A stretch of 64,000 nt of DNA from Stutzerimonas stutzeri (GTDB taxonomy: Bacteria; Pseudomonadota; Gammaproteobacteria; Pseudomonadales; Pseudomonadaceae): contig NC_015740.1 of assembly GCF_000219605.1 (NCBI RefSeq), positions 3,100,001-3,164,000 of the forward strand, written 5' to 3'. The position numbers were made by a program, and so were the translations under genes. The notes below the pieces were generated by a model, which saw only the letters and a list, made by a program, of their open reading frames with translations, was not told where the DNA came from and did not search any database. Positions 13,879-29,253 of the stretch are shown one piece after another. The stretch's first letter is position 1. Every line of letters starts with the position of its first letter.

Positions 13879-15366
13879 TCAGTGACCTATCAACTCGTCG
13901 GCGCTGTGGGGTTTGTCGTGCACGCCGAATCTGTCGACGATGGTGGCGCTGGCTTCGTTAAGACCCAGCACGTCCACTTCGGTGCCTTCCCGGCGCAGCT
14001 TGATCACCACTTTGTCCAGTGCAGCGACCGCGGTGATGTCCCAGAAATGCGCGCGGCGCAAGTCGATCGTGACCTTGGCGATCGCCTCCTTGAAATCGAA
14101 CGCGTTGATGAATTTGTCCGCCGAACTGAAGAACACCTGGCCGGCAACGGTATACGTACGGTGATCCGCCGCTTCATTCAATTCGGAACTCACCGAGAGG
14201 TAGTGGCCAACCTTGTTGGCGAAAAACAACGCGGCCAGTAACACGCCAACCAGAACGCCATAGGCCAGGTTATGAGTGAACACAACCACGACCACCGTGG
14301 CGACCATCACGATATTGGTCGACAGCGGATACCGACGCAGGTTGCGCACCGAGTCCCAGCTGAAGGTGCCGATGGATACCATGATCATCACCGCCACCAG
14401 CGCGGCCATGGGGATCTGCCCGACCCAATCGCTCAGGAAGACAACCAGCAACAGCAGCACAACACCGGCGACCAGCGTGGACAGACGCGTGCGCCCACCC
14501 GACTTCACGTTGATCACCGACTGTCCGATCATGGCGCAGCCAGCCATGCCGCCCAGCATGCCCGCTGCGATGTTGGCGACGCCTTGCCCCTTGCACTCGC
14601 GATTCTTGTCGCTGGTGGTATCGGTCAGGTCATCGACGATGGTCGCGGTCATCAGCGACTCCAGCAGGCCGACCACGGCCAGCGCCGCTGAGTAAGGGAA
14701 GATGATGGCCAGCGTTTCGAGGTTGAGCGGCACGTCCGGCCAGAGGAAAACCGGCAGCGTATCGGGCAGCTCGCCCATGTCGGCGACGGTGCGGATGTCC
14801 AGGCCGAAGTACATGGCTACCGCCGTCATGCTGAGGATGCACACCAGCGGCGACGGAATGACCTTTCCGAGCTTTGGCACGTACGGGAACAGGTAGATGA
14901 TGGCCAGGCCCGCGGCCGTCATGGCGTAAACGTGCCAGGTGACGTTCGTCAGCTCCGGTAGCTGGGCCATGAAGATAAGGATCGCCAGCGCATTGACGAA
15001 GCCGGTCACCACCGAGCGCGAGACGAAGCGCATCAGCGAGCCGAGCCGCAGGTAGCCGGCGATGATCTGCAGCACCCCGCACAACAGCGTGGCGGCCAGG
15101 AGGTATTCCAGACCGTGGTTCTTTACCAGCGTGACCATCAGCAGGGCCATGGCCCCGGTGGCTGCTGAAATCATGCCTGGGCGGCCGCCGACAAAGGCTA
15201 TTACCACGGCGATGCAGAAGGACGCGTACAGCCCGACCTTCGGGTCCACGCCTGCGATGATGGAAAAGGCAATGGCTTCCGGAATCAGGGCCAACGCGAC
15301 GACGAGACCAGACAGCACGTCACCACGGATATTTGAGAGCCAGTTGTGTTTGATCGATTGCAACAT
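13879..15366 (-). CDS. SulP-family anion transporter with STAS domain
   Basis: This 495-residue protein has about 12 membrane segments. The first carries the SulP signature region [27 protein letters not shown] in residues 15-41. A C-terminal STAS domain covers roughly the last 110 residues and contains the [20 protein letters not shown] pattern. Bacterial SulP proteins import sulfate, bicarbonate or dicarboxylates, usually with a sodium or proton gradient. No carbonic anhydrase or sulfur gene lies beside it, so the substrate is open. The ATG at 15366 gives the family-typical start; an earlier start at 15459 adds 31 residues without support. Confidence 0.88.
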
Positions 15367-15745
15367 TGGTAAATCCAAGGCAAGGGACGCAACCGCACCA
15401 TGCAAAGTGGCGTTCAGAACGCGTCGTGTTCGAGATATAGGCATGACTGACGGCCGCACGGGCGCGGTCGGATCGCTGCAGCAGCGAGGCGAGTCAGCCG
15501 CGATGGGCCGAATCGAATGGTGGGGCGTTTCGCTATGGCGGCGTAGGCAGCCAGGCAGAGCGGGTCGGAACGTTCATACGGTCGGTACGTCGGTCGGAAT
15601 TGCAAAGGGCGCGGACCATACCACAGCACGCACGCCCGATGCGACCTGACGACCGGCGGCTCCGTGCCACATACGGCAGGACGAGCAACTGGCCGGACTC
15701 GTTCCGTTACTCATCTCCGACCTCGCGACGTTTGCCGAGGTTTGC
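15367..15745. other. Intergenic region, likely SulP promoter region
   Basis: These 379 bases separate the SGNH-like gene from the SulP gene, both on the minus strand. No coding sequence, RNA gene or clear hairpin was seen. The promoter of the SulP gene and the end of the four-gene acyltransferase transcript must lie here. Confidence 0.4.
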
Positions 15746-16807
15746 TCAGGGCGCACCGTACACGCCGCTGCCAGCCAGTACCGACTCGCCAAGCCGTGCC
15801 TGTTCGGCTTCGCGCAGCTGGTCGGCCAATGCCTCGGAAAAGTCATGAACGGCGGACCAGCGAAGGTGAATCGCATCGACGAACGCACCGGGCGGCGCTA
15901 GCCACTCTTGATCGGCATTCCAGTACTTTGCGCCACCGTGTCCGGCAATGGCCGCGCTCAGTTTGGTATCGAAACGGGCGAGGAAGTGGCCGTCGGCATC
16001 GAACTTGACCTTCCACTGCGGATGCAGCGGCGTGGACACCACCAGCAGCTGCCGCTGCTCCTGTCGAAGCCGCTCGGACAGCCGTCCAAGCGCTGCGAAG
16101 CAGCTATTGTCCAGCGGGTCGGGCTCGCCATAGAAAAGGCCTCGATCGGCGCGCGGCTCCAATGGACCGTCGCCGTGTCGCGTGAATACCAGCGGGTCCC
16201 ATTCGATCTCGTTGGCGCGTTGAGCCTTGATTGTCCGGGCGTTGCGCAACAGCGAACGCGGCGAGAAATAGCGCATGTAATAGCCCCAGCGCGAGGCCTG
16301 CTGATAGACATAGTGGTCGGCATCTTCCCGGTCGAAGACCGCGTCCGGCACCTTCCAGCAGCCGGCGAAGTCCAGCGGGTCGACGATCATCACCACCTGA
16401 CGAATGCTCGGTTGGCGATCCAGCAACCAGTCGGCGACATAGGCAGACTGGTTTGCATGCAGGCCACAGAAGGCGCCGTTGAACGGACGCAGCTCCGGGG
16501 CGCTCGACCTGAGCACGTCACCGTCGACATGACGCCAGGCGACTGATGAACCGATGACCAGCAGGTTGGGCTGATCGATCGGGTTGTGCCGGAGGAAACG
16601 CAGCTTTTCATCCACGCACAGGCTGTTGGAGAAAGCCGGCGGTGGCAGGTTGTCACTGTGGTGCAGCCATGCGAGCAGTGCGGCAAAGGCGCCGAGCATT
16701 CCGAACAGCCCAGCGAACACCCCCAGCAGATAGCTGGCTCGCACCTGTTGCCGTTCAGCTCCGGTCCGGGCGGAGCCGCCCCGGCCGCTATCGACAGTTG
16801 CGCTCAT
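15746..16807 (-). CDS. Membrane-anchored SGNH-like acyltransferase/hydrolase protein
   Basis: This 353-residue protein has one N-terminal membrane helix (about 25-48) and a periplasmic domain. It carries SGNH-type motifs: LLVIGSSVAW with GSS at 86-88 as nucleophile block and DAIH at 311-314 as the Asp-His block. The intermediate DPLD near residue 145 sits where block III is expected. This layout resembles DltD and AlgJ/AlgX-type partners of MBOAT acyltransferases, which finish transfer of an acyl group to a periplasmic polymer. It is the last gene of the MBOAT-FkbH-ACP operon, three bases after the ACP stop. Whether it transfers or removes the acyl group cannot be told. Overall identity is not close to any protein I can name. 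Confidence 0.7.
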   Translation of the reverse strand: MSATVDSGRGGSARTGAERQQVRASYLLGVFAGLFGMLGAFAALLAWLHHSDNLPPPAFSNSLCVDEKLRFLRHNPIDQPNLLVIGSSVAWRHVDGDVLRSSAPELRPFNGAFCGLHANQSAYVADWLLDRQPSIRQVVMIVDPLDFAGCWKVPDAVFDREDADHYVYQQASRWGYYMRYFSPRSLLRNARTIKAQRANEIEWDPLVFTRHGDGPLEPRADRGLFYGEPDPLDNSCFAALGRLSERLRQEQRQLLVVSTPLHPQWKVKFDADGHFLARFDTKLSAAIAGHGGAKYWNADQEWLAPPGAFVDAIHLRWSAVHDFSEALADQLREAEQARLGESVLAGSGVYGAP

Positions 16808-16810
16808 GGC

Positions 16811-17059
16811 TCAACGCCCCCCGAGCTTGCTCTGGATCAGTTGCACGAAATGGCCGACGTTCTTCAGCGACTCCAGCTCAGCAGTGCGGAACTTGATGCC
16901 GAAGCGTTGCTCGGCGGCCACGATCAGCAGGACATGGGCCTGGCTGTCCCAGCCATCGATGTCGTCGGCCGTGGTTTCGGCCGTGAGGACGATGTCGTCA
17001 TCGTCGAACACGTCGTGAAAAACCTGGGTCAGCGCCTGGAGAATTTCCTTTTCGTTCAT
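16811..17059 (-). CDS. Acyl carrier protein
   Basis: This 82-residue, acidic, all-helical protein has the 4'-phosphopantetheine attachment motif GWDSQAHVLLI with Ser39. The residue after Ser is Gln, not the Leu usual in fatty-acid ACPs, which fits a specialised carrier. It sits between an FkbH-like enzyme, whose start it overlaps by four bases, and the SGNH-like protein. The likely role is to carry the acyl unit made by the FkbH-like enzyme and present it to the MBOAT protein. A dedicated phosphopantetheinyl transferase is not seen in the window. Confidence 0.85.
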   Translation of the reverse strand: MNEKEILQALTQVFHDVFDDDDIVLTAETTADDIDGWDSQAHVLLIVAAEQRFGIKFRTAELESLKNVGHFVQLIQSKLGGR

Positions 17060-18957
17060 GCTTGCACCTGGATGTGGTGGTTTATGGATAGGCGTGACGC
17101 CAGCTCGCAGCGCCAGAAACTGGCATCGGGGGTTGCGTTATCGGGGGCTGAGCGCTGCTCGAAGCCCAGTCGCGGATAGTGCTCGGCGACCATGCCGTTG
17201 CGTTCGGTGGGGCGGTATTCGCCAACCAGGGCACGCCAGCCGGCAGCCGCGGCTGCATCGGCCAGCACGTCCAGCACCGCCGACTCGACTTGGCGGCCCA
17301 GCACGCGACAGCTCATCAGCCAGCTGTCGATCAGCAGTTCGTCAGCCTCGATGGCTGCATCCGGTCGCGCCAGCACTACGCTGATCAGGCCGCTATCGCC
17401 GAACTTGTCCTCCAGCCGCAGGGCCAGCGCAATGGCTTGCCGATCGCTGGCCATGCGCTCGACTTCGGCTTCGGTATAACGGCGGGTGGTGAGATTGAAC
17501 TGGTTGGTCTTGTTGATCAGCTGCGTGGCGCGGGCCAGCTCTGCACTGCCGATGCGGCTGACGCGCAGCACCATCTGCAGCCCGCGCAGGTAGCCTTCCA
17601 TGTCCGTGGCCTGGTTCAGCGCGGCCTTGCGTTCGGCATTCAGCGCATAGCTGCGGCCGCGCTCGGCGTCATCGGAGGTAAAGGACACGGCCTCGAAATA
17701 ACCTGCGGCGGCGATTCGTGCGGGGTAATCGGCGACATCGTCGGGCAGTTCCGGTACGGCGACTTCCGGCAGCTCGCGGCGCACGATGTCGCGCTCGGCG
17801 GGGTTGTCGTCGACGAACACCAGGCTATCCAGACCGATATCGAGCATGCTCGCGATGCGCCGCAGGTTGCCGGCCTTGTCTTCCCAGTTAGCGACGAAAG
17901 CTGCGATATCGCTGCGTTTGAGCGCCATTTCCGAGTGTGCGAATGCCGCCTCGGCGACGTGCAGGTCGTTCTTGCTGCACACCGCGAGGATCACCCCACG
18001 GCGTGCCAGCTGCGCGGCGTAGCGCTGGAAGGCGAGAAACGCCTCGCCGCTGGGGCTGCCCTGGCCGAGCTGGATACCGTCGATACCGTCATCACCGATC
18101 ACACCGCCCCACAGGGTGTTGTCCAGATCGAGCACGAGGCACTTGTGCGACAGCCCCGCCGTGGCGGCCGCTATCCGTGCCAGATGATCGCCGTAAAGCG
18201 GGGCCAAGGCCGGGCTGACCAGCTGCTTGGCCTGGTACCAGCGCACCGGGTCGGCCAGGCCGTCGCCATAAGCGGCTGCGTGCCACGCCAAATCGAGCAG
18301 CAGCACGCCATCCTCGCGGGCAGCGCCGCGGATAGCCGCATTCAAGCGTTCGATGACTGCCCGCGGCGAAGCCGGCACCAGTGCTTCGTAAGAGCCGAAC
18401 AATGGCGGCGCGACCGGCACCAGGGTTTGCTGCACCACCTGCGCGGCGTAGCGCTCGCGGGCCCGGCGCCAAAGGAGGCGCAGCTCGTCGACGCGCTCTG
18501 CGACGGCGGCATCCACCTCCGCCTGGCCTGCGTGCAAGGGCAGTTGCAGCGGCGCGTCATGGGCGTCCAGCGCCAGTACCAGCAGTTGGGGGGAGAAGGC
18601 GTTCAGCGCCGGGTCATCGGCCAGCAGCGCCTGGCGGTACATGCCGTAAGGCGCAACGTGCAGCGACAGCGCCAGGCGCCGCTGCAGGCCGGCCATGCGA
18701 ATGGTCGGCAGCAGGTGGTCCACCGTATGCGAAGCGAGCAGCGCCACGCGCAGCGGCGTCAGTCGTGCCGCCGCTGCATGCTGCTCGATGCCGGCGGTGG
18801 CCAGCTTGTCCAGCCGTGCGGTCAGCGTGAAGTCACGCTGGTATGCCGCCAGCCGAGCGGCTTCGTTTAGCCGCTGCAGTGGGTCGTCGATGCGCTTGGC
18901 CTGGCCGATTGCGCTGGCCAGGTCAGGGTGCGGCGGTAGCCAGGAGAGTTGTTGCAT
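17056..18957 (-). CDS. FkbH-like HAD-IIIC family enzyme
   Basis: This 633-residue protein has an N-terminal SGNH-like alpha/beta region (about 70-260). A HAD-IIIC domain follows, with catalytic LDLDNTLWGG (Asp277 and Asp279) and FVDDNPAER. A C-terminal acetyltransferase-like region comes after the INKTNQFNLTTRRY motif. This is the FkbH domain order. Characterised FkbH proteins dephosphorylate 1,3-bisphosphoglycerate and load the glyceryl group on an acyl carrier protein, for example for methoxymalonyl or tetronate biosynthesis. Here there is no polyketide synthase; the neighbours are an ACP and an MBOAT, so glyceryl-ACP may be used to acylate a surface glycan. The start lies 20 bases after the MBOAT stop. 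Substrate is inferred, not shown. Confidence 0.85.
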   Translation of the reverse strand: MQQLSWLPPHPDLASAIGQAKRIDDPLQRLNEAARLAAYQRDFTLTARLDKLATAGIEQHAAAARLTPLRVALLASHTVDHLLPTIRMAGLQRRLALSLHVAPYGMYRQALLADDPALNAFSPQLLVLALDAHDAPLQLPLHAGQAEVDAAVAERVDELRLLWRRARERYAAQVVQQTLVPVAPPLFGSYEALVPASPRAVIERLNAAIRGAAREDGVLLLDLAWHAAAYGDGLADPVRWYQAKQLVSPALAPLYGDHLARIAAATAGLSHKCLVLDLDNTLWGGVIGDDGIDGIQLGQGSPSGEAFLAFQRYAAQLARRGVILAVCSKNDLHVAEAAFAHSEMALKRSDIAAFVANWEDKAGNLRRIASMLDIGLDSLVFVDDNPAERDIVRRELPEVAVPELPDDVADYPARIAAAGYFEAVSFTSDDAERGRSYALNAERKAALNQATDMEGYLRGLQMVLRVSRIGSAELARATQLINKTNQFNLTTRRYTEAEVERMASDRQAIALALRLEDKFGDSGLISVVLARPDAAIEADELLIDSWLMSCRVLGRQVESAVLDVLADAAAAAGWRALVGEYRPTERNGMVAEHYPRLGFEQRSAPDNATPDASFWRCELASRLSINHHIQVQA

Positions 18958-18977
18958 GCCGGGACTCCTTGTCGTGG

Positions 18978-20516
18978 TCAGAACTGGAAGTAGAGAAATT
19001 CGGTCGGCGCCATGGAAAAGGCGATCGCCAGGGCGAAGAAACCGAGCACACCTACCGCCATGCCGTGGATTGCCGATGGACGCCAGGCGCTGACTGGCAG
19101 CAGCCGTTCAGTCCAATGAAGCTGGGCCTGATAGTTGAGTGCTGTGCGGAAGTGGCCCATCCACTGCTGCACGTTGGGCATGCCCCAGACGAACGCCAGC
19201 AGCGCGGCGATATAGGCGAAGTCCGATCGGTCCATGTGCACGCTGTCCGGGCTCAAACCGAGCATGCCTTGGAGGACCGCCAGCGCGGCCGGCACGTCGG
19301 CGGCGCGGAAGAACACCATCGCCACCACCACGCACTGGAAGGTCACCAGCACGGCCAGCGCCTGATGCCACCAGACCTCGCTGTCCAGCTTCCAGCCCTG
19401 GCGTACTTTCCAGGCGCGCCAGCCATGGGCGACCACCAGGTAGAAGCCATGTAGCAGGCCGAACACCACGAATTGCCAGCCGGCGCCGTGCCAGACGCCG
19501 GAGATGAACATGGTGAATACTGTCGGATAGGCGACCAGCGCGAGGAAGGTGCCAAGTGTCATCTTGCCGCGGCGCGGCTGCGGCTTGCCGGCTGCCATAC
19601 GGGCACGGGTCACGCGCAGCACAATGGGGTTGTAGAGGTAGGCGGTGAGAAAGCGCGTCAGCGTCATATGCCAGCGCGACCAGTAGTCGATGACGTTGCG
19701 CGCCTTGAACGGGCTGTTGAAGTTGGCCGGCAGGCTGATGCCGAACAGCAGCGCCAGCCCGATGGCCATGTCGCTGTAGCCAGAGAAGTCGAAATAGATC
19801 TGCAGCGTGTAGGTCAGCGCGCCGGTCCATGCGTCGTAGAACGCCGGGACGGTGCCGTCGGCGGCCAGGCTGAAGACCGGCGTGGCTTTCAGCGCGAGGG
19901 TATCGGCGATCACCACCTTCTTGAACAGGCCGAGCAAAAACACCGTGGCGCCCAGCGACAGGTTGTCGATGCGCGCGCGGAAGCTGTCGCGGTCGTTGAA
20001 CTGCGCAAGCATCTCACCGTGGTGGGTGATCGGTCCGGCGATCAGCTGCGGGAAGAAGCTGATGAATAGGCAATAGTTGGCGAAGTCGTGTTCTTCCACT
20101 ACGCCATCATGGGCGTCGACCAGGTAGGCAATCTGCTGGAAGGTGAAGAACGAAATGGCCAGCGGCAGGATGATGTCCTCGACGCGCCAGCCCAGTTCCA
20201 GCGCGGCATCCAGGGTGCTGAAGAGAAAGCCGGTGTACTTGTAATAGACAAGCAGCAGCGCATTGGCAGCCACTGCCAATGCCAGGATACGGCGCGACGG
20301 GTGCCGGCGCAGGTAGCCACCGAGCAGATAGTTGACCAGCATGCTGCCGACCAGCAGCGGTACGTAGACCGGGTTCCACCAGCCGTAGAACACCAACGAG
20401 ACGACGGTCAGCCAGATCACCGCGAGCCGCTGTCGGCCCGACCCGGTCAGCACGAAGAATCCAATCAGCACCACCGGAAGAAAGCCGGCAATGAATTCCA
20501 TTGAATTGAAAAGCAT
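18978..20516 (-). CDS. MBOAT-family membrane O-acyltransferase (AlgI/DltB-like)
   Basis: This 512-residue protein has about 11-12 membrane segments. The AlgI-type opening is MLFNSMEFIAGFLPVV, and conserved motifs include FFPQLIAGPITHH, DFSGYSDMAIGL and the catalytic region SGVWHGAGWQFV with His343. AlgI and DltB move an activated acyl group across the cytoplasmic membrane for attachment to alginate or teichoic acid. This protein is the first gene of an operon with FkbH-like, ACP and SGNH-like genes; no alginate polymerase genes are present. A sequence resembling an AlgU promoter lies about 190 bases upstream. The acceptor polymer is unknown. Confidence 0.9.
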   Translation of the reverse strand: MLFNSMEFIAGFLPVVLIGFFVLTGSGRQRLAVIWLTVVSLVFYGWWNPVYVPLLVGSMLVNYLLGGYLRRHPSRRILALAVAANALLLVYYKYTGFLFSTLDAALELGWRVEDIILPLAISFFTFQQIAYLVDAHDGVVEEHDFANYCLFISFFPQLIAGPITHHGEMLAQFNDRDSFRARIDNLSLGATVFLLGLFKKVVIADTLALKATPVFSLAADGTVPAFYDAWTGALTYTLQIYFDFSGYSDMAIGLALLFGISLPANFNSPFKARNVIDYWSRWHMTLTRFLTAYLYNPIVLRVTRARMAAGKPQPRRGKMTLGTFLALVAYPTVFTMFISGVWHGAGWQFVVFGLLHGFYLVVAHGWRAWKVRQGWKLDSEVWWHQALAVLVTFQCVVVAMVFFRAADVPAALAVLQGMLGLSPDSVHMDRSDFAYIAALLAFVWGMPNVQQWMGHFRTALNYQAQLHWTERLLPVSAWRPSAIHGMAVGVLGFFALAIAFSMAPTEFLYFQF

Positions 20517-20779: not shown

Positions 20780-21687
20780 CTATGCCGAAACTGCCTCATC
20801 GAACAGGCCACACGGGCTTTTCAAAGCGTCGATGACTGCCTCCAGATCCACGGACCACAGCGCAGGGGGGATGCCGAAAGCCTCCGTAAAACGACTGCAA
20901 TCCAGCACGGACCAAGCCGGACGTTTCGCTGGGGTTGGATAGGCTTCGGTAGCGATAGGCGTCAATCGAGGTGGGTGCCGGACGATCCCCGCGCGGACCG
21001 CTTGCTCAAAAATGGCTTGGGCAAATTCGAACCATGAGCAGGCAGGCTGGCTGCTGTAGTGATAAAGCCCCCACGGAAGCTTGCCGTCTGCCTGATAACG
21101 CAATGCGAGGTCGAGCAAAACCGACGCGATCCGATCCGCACTGGTCGGACAGCCAACCTGATCGTCGACGACGCGTAGTTCCGTTTCACCTGCCAGGCGC
21201 AGCATCGTTTTCACGAAGTTGCTTCCATGCCTGCCGAACACCCAGCTGGTTCTTAAGATCAAGTGCTTTTCAAACTGCTGAACCTGGAGTTCCCCGGCCC
21301 GTTTGCTCGCACCATAAACGCTAATAGGGTTCGTTTGATCGCTCTCGACATAGGGTCGCGCCAGTGCTCCGTCGAAAACGTAGTCTGTCGAAAGATGAAA
21401 GAGTGGAATACCGTGGCGCTGCGCTTCCTTGGCCAACTGATGGGCACCGTCTCGGTTTACGCGATATGCCGCCTCGACCTGTTCCTCCGCGGCATCTAGG
21501 CGGTGTACGCGGCGGCGTTGATGATCAGGTTCGGATTCGCCAATTTCACTGCATTCGCAACGGATCGAGGACAGCTGACATCAAGTTCCGCTTTACCGAG
21601 GCCTATTAGGTCCAATCCCCTCTTGGCCCCCTCCTCGACCAAACTGCGCCCCACCTGACCATTACTTCCGGTAATTAACATCTTCAT
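20780..21687 (-). pseudogene. rmlD: dTDP-4-dehydrorhamnose reductase, broken by a one-base frameshift
   Basis: The N-terminal frame (21687-21499) reads MLITGSNGQVGRSL through INAAAYTA and then meets TAG at 21498-21496. The next frame continues with AAEEQVEAAYRVN, LAKEA, the LSTDYVFDG motif, the catalytic YGASKRAGE and the rest of RmlD to 20780. Adding one G after the Ala codon (GCC-G-TAG) would restore the expected AAAYTAVDAAEE. The enzyme makes dTDP-L-rhamnose for O-antigen or exopolysaccharide. It has a good ribosome site (AAGGAT), but the usual rmlB, rmlA and rmlC genes are absent from the window, so it looks like a relic or transferred fragment. A sequencing error is the alternative explanation. 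Confidence 0.85.
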
Positions 21688-22804: not shown

Positions 22805-23202
22805 CGGAAGCGCTCCTGTCGTCTCGTAGCCCATCTGACCGGCCAGATGCCGCGGGTCGCCGGGCTGACGTGCGTTGTAGCAGACAGGCGAGTCCGCAGC
22901 CAATTCGACGTGGTCGCGCGTGGCACGCTGCACCGGATCGACAGACCCGCAGACGTCCAGAACACGTTCGGGCCGTCTAGCGGCCCTTTGGCGCAGGCTC
23001 CTATCTCCCACCGGCGTTCACCAATACCATGCCGTGCTCAAGCGGGTGACCATGCAGCTCCTGGGAACACTCTCGCTTGTCGGCAGTCCGCCCAAGGACG
23101 GACCTGTTTTCGCACTGCCCGACACCGGCAGCCGCGTCGAGCTATGTCCGATCGATCGGGAGCCCTGATCGGACCACCAACCAGACAAGGCGCACGTTAC
23201 AG
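22805..23202. other. Divergent intergenic region between exporter and hybrid kinase
   Basis: These 398 bases must hold the promoters of both flanking genes. Open frames cross it but are extensions of the flanking genes or shadows. No hairpin, repeat or RNA gene was recognised. Confidence 0.4.
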
Positions 23203-25290
23203 ATGGCAGGCGAAACTGCGGAAGCAAAGCGAATCGTTCTCGGCATGCGCGACAGCGACAAACGGCGCGAGCTCGCCGCGCTGCTGGCCGCCGAGGGCTA
23301 CAGCGTCGGCCTTTGCACTGACCAGACGAGCCTGGCACAGCGCATCGACGAGACGGTCGACGTCGTGTTGCTCGCCGACGAGCTGGCGGCGGGGCCGTTG
23401 GATAACCTCAGCGCCGCGCTCGGGCAACTGCCGGCCGGCGGAGCCATTCCGTTCATCCTGCTGGGCTCCGGCACCGAGCCCCATGCTGTGCTCCGTGCCC
23501 GCCTGCCGTCGGCGATCAGCGACTTCGTGGTACTCGAAGAACCGGTCGGGCCCGCCACGCTGCTCAGCTGCCTCGCCACCTGCATACAGCTGCATCGGGA
23601 GCGGCTCGCCCGGCAGCGACAGAAGTCCGCCCAAGTCGATGAGCGAACCCGCTTCGAGCGACTGATCGAGAACCTTCCGATCGGCGTCTGCTTCATCGAT
23701 GCCGACGGCAATACGCTGCTCAGCAACCCCAAGTACGACGAGTACGTGCCCAATCGAAAGATTCCCTCGACGGCGCCCGAGCGAGCGCGGCGCTGGGTAG
23801 GCCTGGACAGCCAGGGGCAGGTCATACCGCCGAGCCAGTACGTCGGTGCCCGTGCCCTGCGCGGCGAGCAGGTAAATGACCAGGACTACCGGTACTACCC
23901 CGAAAACGGCGGCGAACGCTGGCTGCGCCTGAGCGGCGTGCCCCTCTATGACAACACCGAGCAGCCGATGGGCGCGGCGGTAGTGATCATCGACGTCGAT
24001 GCCGAGAGGCGCAGCGAGGAGATGCTGCGCGAGTTCAATCAGCAGCTCGAGCAGGAGGTCGAGCTGCGAACCCAGGCACTGCAGCAGGCGCTCGACCAAC
24101 TGACCGTCGAAGTCCAGGAGCGCAGCCGAGCAGAGGAACAACTGCGCCACTCTCAGAAGATGGACGCCGTCGGCCAGCTTACCGGCGGCATCGCACACGA
24201 CTTCAACAACATGCTGACTGGCATCATCGGTGCGCTGGATCTGATTCGCCTGCGCCTGGATACCGGTCGCCATGACGACCTGCCGCGGTATCTCGATGCG
24301 GCACATGGCTCGGCGCAGCGCGCCGCCTCCCTGACCCAGCGCCTGCTGGCCTTCTCCCACCGCCAGCCTTTGCAGACCCGGCCGACCGCGGTCAATCCGC
24401 TGATCCGCTCGCTTGCCGAGCTGTTGCAGCGCAGCCTGGGCGAAACCATCCGCTTCGAGCTGGCCATCGACGAGGCCGCCGGGCTCGCCCTGGTCGACCC
24501 CAGCCAGATGGAAAACGCCCTGCTCAACCTGACGTTCAATGCCCAGGATGCCATGCCGGACGGCGGCACATTGCGCATCGAGACGCAGCGCCTGGAATTG
24601 CCAGCGGAGCAGGCCACCCGCCACGGCGTGCAGGCCGGCGAATACCTGTGCGTGCGCGTCATCGACACCGGAATTGGCATCCCAGCGGCCCTGGTGGACA
24701 AGGTGTTCGAGCCTTTCTTCACGACCAAGCCCCTCGGCGAAGGTACCGGGCTCGGCTTGTCGATGGTCTACGGCTTCGTCCGCCAGAGCGGCGGCTTCAT
24801 CACCATCGACAGCTGCCAGGGCAAGGGGACCCGCGTCGCCCTGCACATGCCAGCGGCGCCTGCCGACGCGCGGGAAGAATCGGCCGCGGCAACGAGCCGC
24901 GTTCCCGGTGCAGGGGGCGGGCGCACGGTACTGTTGGTCGAGGACGACGACACCGTGCGGCCGCTGCTGCAGAGCGCGCTCGAGGATTTCGGCTACCGTG
25001 TGCACCTGGCCGCCGACAGTCAGAGCGCCCTGGAAGTCGCCGCACAGCTCGATTCGCTCGACCTGCTGCTGACCGATGTCGGCCTGCCGGGGCTCAACGG
25101 CCGCCAGCTCGCCGAAATGCTTCAGCAACGGCGCCCTGGCCTGCCGGTGGTGCTGATCACCGGCTACGCCGAACAGGCCGCGACCCGCCTCGACTGCCTG
25201 GCCCCCGGCATGCAACTCATGACCAAACCCTTCTCGCTCGAACTGCTGGCCGAAACCGTAGCCCGCGCAATCGCCACCCCGGTTGGCTGA
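23203..25290 (+). CDS. Hybrid sensor histidine kinase with degenerate N-terminal receiver, PAS and C-terminal receiver
   Basis: This 695-residue cytoplasmic kinase starts with a receiver-like domain (about 8-125) in which the phosphoacceptor position of VVLLADE appears not to be Asp. A PAS domain follows (about 150-275, LIENLPIGVCFIDADG), then a coiled coil. The HisKA domain has GGIAHDFNN with His332; the ATPase has NAQDAMPDGG (Asn446) and GTGLGLSMVYGF. A C-terminal receiver has VEDDD and phosphoacceptor Asp625 in LTDVGLP. The HDFNN subgroup is common in Pseudomonas signalling. No membrane segment is seen, so it senses an internal signal. The start at 23203 removes an unstructured extension. 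It is a paralogue of the frameshifted kinase at 29237. Confidence 0.87.
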   Translation: MAGETAEAKRIVLGMRDSDKRRELAALLAAEGYSVGLCTDQTSLAQRIDETVDVVLLADELAAGPLDNLSAALGQLPAGGAIPFILLGSGTEPHAVLRARLPSAISDFVVLEEPVGPATLLSCLATCIQLHRERLARQRQKSAQVDERTRFERLIENLPIGVCFIDADGNTLLSNPKYDEYVPNRKIPSTAPERARRWVGLDSQGQVIPPSQYVGARALRGEQVNDQDYRYYPENGGERWLRLSGVPLYDNTEQPMGAAVVIIDVDAERRSEEMLREFNQQLEQEVELRTQALQQALDQLTVEVQERSRAEEQLRHSQKMDAVGQLTGGIAHDFNNMLTGIIGALDLIRLRLDTGRHDDLPRYLDAAHGSAQRAASLTQRLLAFSHRQPLQTRPTAVNPLIRSLAELLQRSLGETIRFELAIDEAAGLALVDPSQMENALLNLTFNAQDAMPDGGTLRIETQRLELPAEQATRHGVQAGEYLCVRVIDTGIGIPAALVDKVFEPFFTTKPLGEGTGLGLSMVYGFVRQSGGFITIDSCQGKGTRVALHMPAAPADAREESAAATSRVPGAGGGRTVLLVEDDDTVRPLLQSALEDFGYRVHLAADSQSALEVAAQLDSLDLLLTDVGLPGLNGRQLAEMLQQRRPGLPVVLITGYAEQAATRLDCLAPGMQLMTKPFSLELLAETVARAIATPVG

Positions 25291-27316: not shown

Positions 27317-27726
27317 GGCGGCTACCTGGGAAGGCAAAGGCTGATCATGGAACAGCCGCGATGTCGATCCAAGGTGCAATGGTTGCAGCCTGTTGCGCAC
27401 CCGCAGCGAACCTCCCTGCGAAGGCTTCTCGGGGCGCCTGATGGTGCGCCGCCTGAGGACGCGATGACGCCTGCAACGAGCCCGGTCAAATTCCGATATG
27501 CGGAACGGCGCGGCAAAAGCCCAGTCGGAATAGATGACTACGCCCCTCGGTTTTCGCTTGCCGAACACGCCTGCCACACGGTCATGGCGAACCGGCACGG
27601 GGCTTCTTGCCCGACCGCTTGTGCGGCTTTGACGGGCGCGTTCCATTGCCTCGCGGCGCTCGAAGCGCGAGGTCAGGAACCAGGACACGCAGTCTCCATG
27701 AGGCTGCCTGCGTAAGGAGCATGGAA
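27317..27726. other. Divergent intergenic region before the KaiC-like gene
   Basis: These 410 bases separate the ABC1-family gene from the KaiC-like gene. I see the strong ribosome site AAGGAG at 27714-27719 but no convincing promoter or hairpin. Open frames here are extensions of the flanking genes. Confidence 0.4.
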
Positions 27727-29253
27727 ATGACCGATACCCACGATCTTGATTTCCCCATGGATGACGAAGCCCAGCGTATTTCGACGGGCAGCGAAGGGCT
27801 GGACAACATCCTCGGCGGTGGCCTGGACCCCAACCGCATGTATCTCTACGAGGGCAGCCCGGGCTCGGGCAAGACCACCATTGCGCTGCAGTTCCTGCTT
27901 GAGGGCGTGCGCAGGGGCGAGCGCGTGCTCTACGTGACGCTGTCGGAAACCAAGGCAGAGCTGGAGCTGGTGGCCAAGCGGCACGGCTGGAGCCTGGATG
28001 GCATTGATGTGTTCGAACTGGTCAGCCCGGAAACCAGCCTCGATCCGGAGCTGGAGCTGACCGTGCTGCACCCGGCGGAAATGGAGCTCAGCGAAACCAC
28101 CCAGCAGGTGTTCGACCGCGTCAGCGAAACCAACCCGACGCGGGTGATCTTCGACAGCCTTTCGGAAATGCGTCTGCTGGCCCAAAGCCCGCTGCGCTAT
28201 CGCCGGCAGGTGCTGGCACTCAAGCACTTCTTCACCACCCGCCGCTGCACGGTGATCCTGCTCGATGACCAGACCTCGGAAATGGGCGACCTGCAGCTGC
28301 ACTCGATTTCCCATGGGGTCGTCCTGCTGGAGCAGCTGGCCATCGACTATGGCGCCGAACGCAGGCGTCTGCGGGTCATCAAGATGCGCGGCATCCAGTT
28401 CCGCGGGGGCTACCACGACTTCGTCATCCGCAAGGGCGGGCTGCAGATCTATCCGCGCCTGATCGCGGCCGAGCATCGCTCCTGCTTTGTCGGCGAGGTG
28501 GCCTCCTCCGGCAACGAGATGCTGGACCGGATGCTCGGTGGCGGGCTGGAACGCGGCACCAACGCGCTGCTGGTCGGCGCGGCCGGGGTCGGCAAGTCCT
28601 CGCTGGCGCTGACCTATGCGTACGCCGCCTGCCAACGCGGCGAGCAGGTGGCCTTCTTCGTTTTCGACGAGAACATCGGCACCCTGCTGACCCGCGGCCG
28701 CGCACTGGGAATGGATATCGAGCCTTGGATCGAACGAGGCCTGCTGCACCTGCAACAGGTCGACCCGGCCGAACTGTCGCCCGGCGAGTTCACCGCCGCG
28801 GTGCGCCACAGCGTCGAAGTGCAAGGCGCCGGGCTGGTGGTGCTCGATAGCCTCAACGGCTACCTGCACGCCATGCCGGACGGCAAGTTCCTGGTCCTCC
28901 AGATGCACGAGCTGCTGAGTTACCTGGGGCAGAAAGGGGTGGTCACCATCATGGTATTGGCCCAGCATGGGCTGGTTGGCGTAATGGATACCCCAATCGA
29001 CATCAGCTACCTGAGCGATGCCGTCATCATGCAGCGCTATTTCGAGCATGCCGGCATCATCCGCCGGGCCCTGTCGGTGGTGAAGAAGCGCAGCGGGCGC
29101 CACGAGAACACCATCCGCGAATACCGCTTCAGTCCCACCGGCATCCAGGTCGGGCCGCCCCTGAGTCACTTCAACGGCATCCTTTCGGGCACACCGGAAT
29201 ACACCGGCGATGCGGCTCAGCTACTGAAAGACGAGCATGACGACACCTACTAA
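27727..29253 (+). CDS. KaiC-like dual-RecA-domain ATPase
   Basis: This 508-residue protein has two tandem RecA/KaiC domains. Domain one has P-loop [10 protein letters not shown] (Lys49) and [11 protein letters not shown] as Walker B; domain two has [12 protein letters not shown] (Lys290) and [10 protein letters not shown]. KaiC-like proteins outside cyanobacteria act with histidine kinases in stress or redox signalling; no kaiA or kaiB gene is here. It is followed, with a 17-base overlap, by a hybrid kinase gene, which suggests a two-protein signalling unit. The start at 27727 is preferred over the ATG at 27721, which is only one base from AAGGAG. The C-terminus lacks an obvious autophosphorylation tail. 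Confidence 0.87.

Follow-up and report, generated by a model that had tools for sequence, protein, structure and literature searches.

The window (the whole 64-kb stretch of DNA analyzed here) contains a four-gene operon on the minus strand at positions 15746 to 20516, which encodes, in order, an MBOAT acyltransferase, an FkbH-type loader, an acyl carrier protein (ACP), and a membrane-anchored SGNH transferase. We consider it probable that these genes form an extracytoplasmic O-acylation pathway resembling the Dlt pathway, with FkbH in the place of DltA, an ATP-dependent ligase; the DltX shuttle appears to be fused to the MBOAT protein. Glyceryl is the most likely acyl group, as inferred only from family membership. 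More tentatively, the operon may represent an undescribed and widespread pathway of envelope glycerylation, Dlt-like but free of an ATP-dependent ligase, in which FkbH would charge a dedicated ACP from 1,3-bisphosphoglycerate and a self-shuttling MBOAT and a DltD-like SGNH protein would export glyceryl to a surface acceptor.

Layout and conservation of the operon

The gene order and the intergenic gaps of 20 nt (MBOAT/FkbH), −4 nt (FkbH/ACP), and 3 nt (ACP/SGNH) reported in the preliminary description were exact, as were its coordinates. The operon is not a chance arrangement, because the same four-gene order recurs in further genera spanning at least two classes of Proteobacteria. A 4-nt overlap between the FkbH stop codon and the ACP start codon was common to 35 of 37 four-gene loci. 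A promoter and terminator scan found no promoter-like sites (1.0 in shuffled sequences) and two terminator-like sites (3.8 in shuffled sequences), Rfam had no match within the 64-kb window, and the RNA fold at the MBOAT/FkbH junction was not significant.

We fetched 80 loci using FkbH alone. An ACP was found in 76 of these, an MBOAT in 64, and all four genes in 41; the 16 loci without an MBOAT in the available stretch included some that were cut by contig ends. The MBOAT and FkbH genes were less than 400 bp apart in 59 of the 64 loci having both. The preliminary description had stated that its reading would fail if homologous loci did not keep these two genes together; they are kept together, and linkage therefore does not count against it.

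In a genus panel of 56 genomes, MBOAT and SGNH were found in the same 49, and the remaining 7 had no MBOAT, SGNH, or FkbH. FkbH was visible in 35 of the 49 genomes with MBOAT and SGNH. Since 14 of the 21 panel genomes lacking a visible FkbH did carry MBOAT and SGNH, a swap of the FkbH gene was considered. We dropped this idea because 14 stretches, taken from 13 of those genomes (all but G022), were each incompletely readable; the stretches from two panel genomes with a visible FkbH were fully readable. The distance matrices of the four proteins covaried (Pearson, 0.90 to 0.98; reached by 0 of 999 permutations), a pattern that shared species history alone could also produce.

The four proteins and their proposed roles

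The FkbH protein (positions 18957 to 17056, minus strand; 633 aa) matched TIGR01686 at 290 bits (cutoff, 146.65) over profile positions 3 to 321 of 323 and the HAD-IIIC profile TIGR01681 at 59.9 bits (cutoff, 35.75). Its predicted fold has three domains: SGNH-like (residues ∼65 to 268), HAD-IIIC phosphatase (∼267 to 425), and GNAT (∼461 to 621). Both marks of the FkbH family are present, namely, the HAD-IIIC catalytic aspartates (among residues D277, D279, T281, S328, K361, D383, and D384) and a C-terminal GNAT-type domain with a cysteine (the conserved Cys550, adjoining R-x-x-G). These catalytic-type residues were kept across the aligned loci (n = 81; this and the alignments of 65 MBOAT, 77 ACP, and 42 SGNH proteins each include the window's own protein). 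C327 was replaced by Ser in 6 of 81 sequences and was therefore not counted as catalytic. Several homologues are labeled "methoxymalonyl-ACP biosynthesis protein" in databases.

The ACP (positions 17059 to 16811, minus strand; 82 aa) scored 20.2 bits against the PP-binding model PF00550, slightly below the cutoff of 20.8, and matched the putative ACP 2lml in the PDB (E value, 1.3e-21). Its phosphopantetheine serine is Ser39 (GWDSQ), and the W-D-S serine was found in 77 of 77 aligned sequences. Searching the genome with this protein at an E value of 0.001 returned only the protein itself, and it looks like the operon's dedicated carrier protein. By analogy with characterized FkbH enzymes, FkbH would take 1,3-bisphosphoglycerate, strip one phosphate from it, and load glyceryl onto the phosphopantetheine of the ACP, probably via Cys550 in the GNAT half.

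The MBOAT protein (positions 20516 to 18978, minus strand; 512 aa) was the sole match to PF03062 in the genome (80 bits; cutoff, 27). It scored 193.9 bits against the DltB profile TIGR04091, under the equivalog cutoff of 375, and matched DltB in the PDB (6bug; E value, 6e-32). Bacterial MBOATs in MBOAT-SGNH pairs carry an invariant His and a C-terminal FXYXXF motif, and the window's protein has both. The catalytic-type His343 (WHG) was conserved in 64 of 65 aligned sequences. The C terminus, FLYFQF (residues 507 to 512), fits the FXYXXF acyl-shuttle motif as defined in the excerpted text of PMC12148441, where an acyl-Tyr shuttle is described as demonstrated in DltX and PatA. The F/Y/F positions were kept in 63 of 65 MBOATs, the window's included; one of the two exceptions was cut by a contig end, and the called ORF of the other stops without the motif. 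The shuttle motif thus sits on the MBOAT itself, and with gaps of at most 20 nt, there is no room between the genes for a DltX-like ORF. As in DltB/DltC and PatA, the MBOAT would receive acyl-ACP at the cytoplasmic face and move the acyl group to Tyr509 of FLYFQF.

The SGNH protein (positions 16807 to 15746, minus strand; 353 aa) had no Pfam or NCBIfam match at an E value of 0.001 and was recognized by its predicted fold (model pLDDT, 90.4) and its motifs. The best Foldseek matches of the model were DltD structures 6pfx and 3bma (E value, 7e-6), and the top three among its weak sequence-profile matches were all DltD (best E value, 0.0058). No DltD was among the 50 matches listed by VIA-align, which does not count as evidence that DltD is absent from its matches; the term "DltD-like" therefore refers to the Foldseek and weak profile results. 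The features of DltD/SGNH transferases are all present: the SGNH fold, an N-terminal membrane anchor (transmembrane helix at residues 24 to 50), the nucleophile motif G86-S87-S88 (GSS in 42 of 42 aligned sequences, the window's included), and D311-x-x-H314 (D311 in 40 and H314 in 41 of 42). On the model of DltD and PatB, the acyl group would pass from the shuttle to the catalytic serine of this anchored protein and then, as an ester, to a periplasmic or surface acceptor.

The preliminary description had proposed that an FkbH/ACP loading pair, an MBOAT membrane acyltransferase, and an SGNH periplasmic transferase place an acyl group on an envelope glycan. The three enzymatic roles were supported, and two further features, the FXYXXF motif at the MBOAT C terminus and the resemblance of the predicted SGNH protein fold to DltD, strengthen this reading beyond the evidence first given for it. 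The suggested glyceryl group and glycan acceptor are more tentative. Homologues of five glycan-synthesis families were found in the flanks of 0 of 7 Pseudomonas-type loci.

Acyl group and acceptor

The 12 flanking ORFs scanned comprised rmlD (which looks broken), a LysE transporter, a sensor kinase, a KaiC-like protein, a LysR regulator, an SDR, a DUF6152 protein, a sulfate permease, and four ORFs without a match; no acceptor gene was recognized among them. The SDR also matches a KR domain model, as SDRs do. Neither the operon nor these 12 ORFs included the methoxymalonyl partners FkbG, FkbI, and FkbK. The genome had six ketoacyl synthase matches, none in an open frame longer than 447 aa, and the nearest was more than 300 kb away, in agreement with the earlier remark that no polyketide synthase is near. 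Because the methoxymalonyl partners were missing from the ORFs scanned and no ketoacyl synthase lay within 300 kb, glyceryl-ACP would be the end product.

These observations also bear on other readings of the FkbH-ACP pair. Database names of homologues and FkbH family membership would suit either a vestige or a component of a methoxymalonyl-ACP polyketide pathway, but given that the partners are missing from the operon and the 12 flanking ORFs scanned, the lack of a long modular ketoacyl synthase frame anywhere in the genome, and the linkage of FkbH to MBOAT and SGNH instead, such an origin is extremely improbable. The operon might also combine two unrelated functions, with an AlgI/PatAB-like MBOAT/SGNH pair that acetylates from acetyl-CoA and an FkbH-ACP pair that produces a building block for some other purpose. 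Non-Dlt MBOAT/SGNH pairs with an acyl-CoA donor are indeed described in the excerpted text of PMC12148441, yet the fixed gene order with 4-nt overlaps, the close spacing of MBOAT and FkbH, the joint presence or absence of MBOAT and SGNH in 56 of 56 panel genomes, and the distance to any ketoacyl synthase make this combination quite unlikely. Somewhat less doubtful is that the same machinery carries another cargo, with FkbH loading a lactyl-, hydroxymalonyl-, O-methylglyceryl-, or 3-hydroxyacyl-type group or editing an ACP that is charged elsewhere; sequence cannot reveal substrate specificity. MaoC/SDR-like ORFs were seen by eye beside FkbH-ACP in five relatives (L071, L072, L077, L101, and L105; one, in L072, was confirmed by Pfam) and would be consistent with another acyl group, or an extended one, in those loci. 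Some relatives had a neighboring VOC protein resembling methylmalonyl-CoA epimerase (four checked), and SAM methyltransferases adjoined some relatives, in Paroceanicella and Tistrella clusters; neighbors of this kind would be expected where a 2-hydroxyacyl thioester is tailored and also count in favor of glyceryl, but they are rare. VOC homologues occurred in 2 of 80 loci (L093 and L062) and a methyltransferase homologue in 1 of 80 (L108), the other cases coming from seven plasmid regions chosen from 70 plasmid records matched. Against another cargo in the window, however, the operon has no tailoring gene, its FkbH is complete and retains the HAD residues and Cys550, and within the four-gene group (39 loci), the VOC and methyltransferase seeds matched L062 only. 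On balance, a cargo other than glyceryl seems rather unlikely.

The acceptor may likewise differ from a surface polymer: the SGNH protein could esterify a lipid, a lipoprotein, or a periplasmic oligosaccharide such as an osmoregulated glucan. In keeping with this, the five glycan-synthesis families (five seed proteins; flanks of up to 10 kb, shorter at contig ends) were absent not only beside the Pseudomonas-type loci but also from the flanks of 14 of 22 Stutzerimonas loci. Candidate polymers did not track the operon MBOAT (49 of 56 panel genomes) either, and we rejected cellulose (BcsB, 12 of 56), Pel (PelG, 9 of 56 at an E value of 1e-3 and 8 of 56 over the cutoff), and alginate export (PF13372, 22 of 56 with weak scores, one in a genome lacking the operon) as acceptors suggested by co-occurrence. 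All 12 BcsB genomes and all 8 PelG genomes over the cutoff do have the operon. The genome has two Bac_transf genes, ∼0.5 Mb from the operon, and this family (PF02397) was present in 56 of 56 panel genomes and is therefore uninformative on the acceptor. On the other hand, polysaccharide genes adjoin the operon in Roseomonas-type loci, are near it in S. meliloti, and lie beside it in some other relatives, and DltD- and PatB-type partners work on polymers according to the excerpted text of PMC12148441. We thus regard a nonpolymer acceptor as unlikely.

If glycerylation of a surface acceptor is correct, the pathway would account for how glycerate esters arrive on the surface glycans of bacteria and would couple surface chemistry to glycolytic flux, with 1,3-bisphosphoglycerate as the direct acyl donor. 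VOC epimerase-like and methyltransferase neighbors would then point to L-glyceryl and O-methylglyceryl variants. The single MBOAT in the genome and deletion of the four genes offer a genetic handle. Among the matches listed in the open-license literature searched, none described an FkbH-ACP-MBOAT-SGNH set.

Comparison with known systems

The operon most resembles the Dlt pathway of teichoic acid D-alanylation (DltA-DltB-DltC-DltD-DltX), with which it shares an MBOAT, an FXYXXF motif, and an anchored SGNH transferase and would share a carrier-bound small acyl group; in the searches made, its MBOAT was nearest DltB and its SGNH protein nearest DltD. It differs in having FkbH and no DltA gene, in a shuttle motif fused to the MBOAT, apparently in place of a separate DltX, in its Gram-negative host, and in an MBOAT under the DltB equivalog cutoff. 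PatA/PatB peptidoglycan O-acetylation, AlgI/AlgJ/AlgX, and WssH/WssI likewise pair an MBOAT bearing a C-terminal FXYXXF with a periplasmic SGNH partner, but the present operon also encodes an ACP and a loader of its own. In the excerpted text of PMC12148441, the PatA donor is acetyl-CoA and non-Dlt MBOAT/SGNH pathways are described as lacking a similar carrier protein, a statement to which this operon looks like an exception.

An FkbH domain with a stand-alone ACP or PCP is also found in the FkbH/ACP pairs of tetronate and methoxymalonyl polyketides and in the FkbH domains of NRPS systems (tetromadurin, vioprolide, and suomilide). Unlike these, the operon has no PKS, NRPS, or oxidases nearby, and its acyl group appears bound for a membrane acyltransferase; it would join the glyceryl-ACP chemistry of polyketide and peptide assembly lines with transmembrane envelope acylation, two subjects handled separately in the literature consulted. 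For suomilide, an MBOAT was proposed to acylate a hexose, and no link to FkbH is proposed in the excerpted text of PMC13122637. Among the literature matches listed, FkbH and MBOAT appeared together only in the aeruginosin/suomilide peptide work, and none linked FkbH to gellan glycerylation. Native gellan is a glyceryl-bearing exopolysaccharide, and exopolysaccharides of this type would be the kind of product to expect from the operon.

The operon and its distribution

Four minus-strand open reading frames (ORFs) make up the operon, encoding the membrane acyltransferase MBOAT (20516 to 18978), FkbH (18957 to 17056), an acyl carrier protein (ACP; 17059 to 16811), and an SGNH-like protein (16807 to 15746), with intergenic gaps of 20, −4, and 3 nucleotides, as the preliminary description had them. 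Residues ∼65 to 268 of FkbH form an SGNH-like N-terminal domain, with weak matches to FkbH_N and Lipase_GDSL_2 plus fold matches. In the organism's own genome, searched as one contig of 4.55 Mbp, MBOAT was the sole match to PF03062, FkbH was the sole match at an E value of 1e-30, and the ACP query yielded only itself at an E value of 0.001. A sulfate permease gene (13879 to 15459) lies downstream of the operon. Upstream, rmlD (dTDP-4-dehydrorhamnose reductase; 20780 to 21687, minus strand) is distributed over two reading frames and seems to be interrupted; full-length matches to the rmlD family occur at other places in the genome, and one relative's locus (L038) has an open 304-amino-acid homologue upstream of the operon. 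A KaiC-like ATPase (27607 to 29253, plus strand) is encoded near a hybrid sensor kinase (23077 to 25290).

We collected loci from relatives using FkbH alone as the query and examined the best 80 of 516; the closest named relatives among the matches listed were Stutzerimonas. ACP was present in 76 of these 80 loci and MBOAT in 64 (59 of them ≤400 bp from FkbH), while MBOAT was not seen in the other 16 within the stretch examined. All four genes were found in 41 of the 80, with the window's order in 37 and the order FkbH-ACP-MBOAT-SGNH in 4. Loci in the window's order come from Stutzerimonas, Pseudomonas, Azomonas, and a Halopseudomonas-labeled MAG, as well as from the alphaproteobacteria Roseomonas, Belnapia, Siccirubricoccus, and Rhizorhapis. 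This spread suggests that the four-gene set was transferred as a unit.

Within a 56-genome genus panel, MBOAT and SGNH were found in an identical set of 49 genomes, at least 35 of which also had FkbH; none of the three was found in the remaining 7. Across 21 Stutzerimonas-group loci, the operon (5 kb) had 72 to 89% DNA identity to the window, but few of them matched it in the flanks: L032 and L033 on both the sulfate permease and the rmlD sides, L052 on the permease side in rearranged form, and L038 on the rmlD side. By these alignments, the operon behaves as an independent cassette. Four genomes (G001, G004, G018, and G053) carry MBOAT and SGNH twice; L033 is one of the duplicate copies and has flanking genes in common with the window, and G004 has an additional MBOAT fragment with an internal stop.

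Proposed acylation and its cargo

Passages of PMC12148441 describe a carrier protein as the acyl source for DltB and PatA as an MBOAT with a built-in shuttle that hands the acyl group to an SGNH partner. From the observed parts and their conservation, we infer each chemical step: FkbH would charge the operon's ACP, MBOAT would transfer the acyl group from ACP to its own Tyr509 (in a C-terminal FLYFQF motif), and Ser87 of the SGNH protein would receive it and then esterify the acceptor. We consider it very probable that the four proteins form such a machine.

By membership, FkbH and the ACP are an FkbH-ACP pair, but the operon is very unlikely to be a polyketide pathway. The six ketoacyl-synthase matches in the genome all lie >300 kb from the operon, in agreement with the earlier statement that no polyketide synthase is nearby, and none lies in an open frame exceeding 447 amino acids, which leaves the genome with no evident modular polyketide synthase. 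In methoxymalonyl clusters, the FkbH step is followed by two oxidases and a methyltransferase; because a scan of the operon and 12 flanking ORFs recognized none of these, the pathway would end at glyceryl-ACP.

Glyceryl is, on balance, the probable acyl group. VOC proteins resembling methylmalonyl-CoA epimerase lie beside FkbH-ACP clusters in four relatives (L093:13805-14233, L114:14925-15392, L116:11909-12337, and L118:10834-11301), scoring 26 to 58 bits, under the equivalog cutoff of 114.95, and are perhaps glyceryl-thioester epimerases. Together with SAM methyltransferases beside such clusters in L114 and L115, these neighbors support a 2-hydroxyacyl thioester cargo. Among the best 80 of 516 loci, VOC homologues are rare (2 of 80, L093 and L062, the latter on the opposite strand ∼200 nucleotides beyond the SGNH gene), and a methyltransferase homologue occurs once (L108). 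MaoC/SDR-like ORFs adjoin FkbH-ACP in five loci (L071, L072, L077, L101, and L105; one confirmed by Pfam, L072:14996-16522), which counts against a universal glyceryl cargo and suggests that these lineages use other or extended acyl groups.

Candidate acceptors

In Roseomonas-type loci, polysaccharide genes (initiating sugar transferase, GT2, RmlC-like, and flippase) adjoin the cassette. Two annotated Sinorhizobium meliloti records place MBOAT, ACP, and FkbH ∼7 to 9 kb away from a gene whose annotation reads capsular polysaccharide biosynthesis; next after that gene come an ABC transporter and RkpR. The FkbH homologue of S. meliloti 1021 pSymB (L112) aligns in two pieces and may be interrupted; it aligns in one piece in most strains among the matches listed. 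Homology to five seed proteins identified flanking glycan genes at 5 of 10 other four-gene loci, 15 of 41 FkbH-ACP loci, 8 of 22 Stutzerimonas loci, and none of 7 Pseudomonas-type loci. Cellulose, Pel, and alginate-export genes did not track with the cassette among the 56 genus genomes. Most likely, the acceptor is LPS, capsule, peptidoglycan, or periplasmic glucan, encoded elsewhere.

Comparison with known systems

Among the matches listed, no description of this four-gene set was found in the open-license literature. The operon is proposed to act like the D-alanylation (Dlt) pathway but differs from it in having no DltA, in carrying the shuttle motif on the MBOAT, and in an MBOAT that scores below the DltB cutoff. 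Its shuttle is like that of PatAB, the peptidoglycan O-acetylation system; however, passages of PMC12148441 describe PatAB-type MBOAT/SGNH pathways as working without a carrier protein, whereas the operon includes one.
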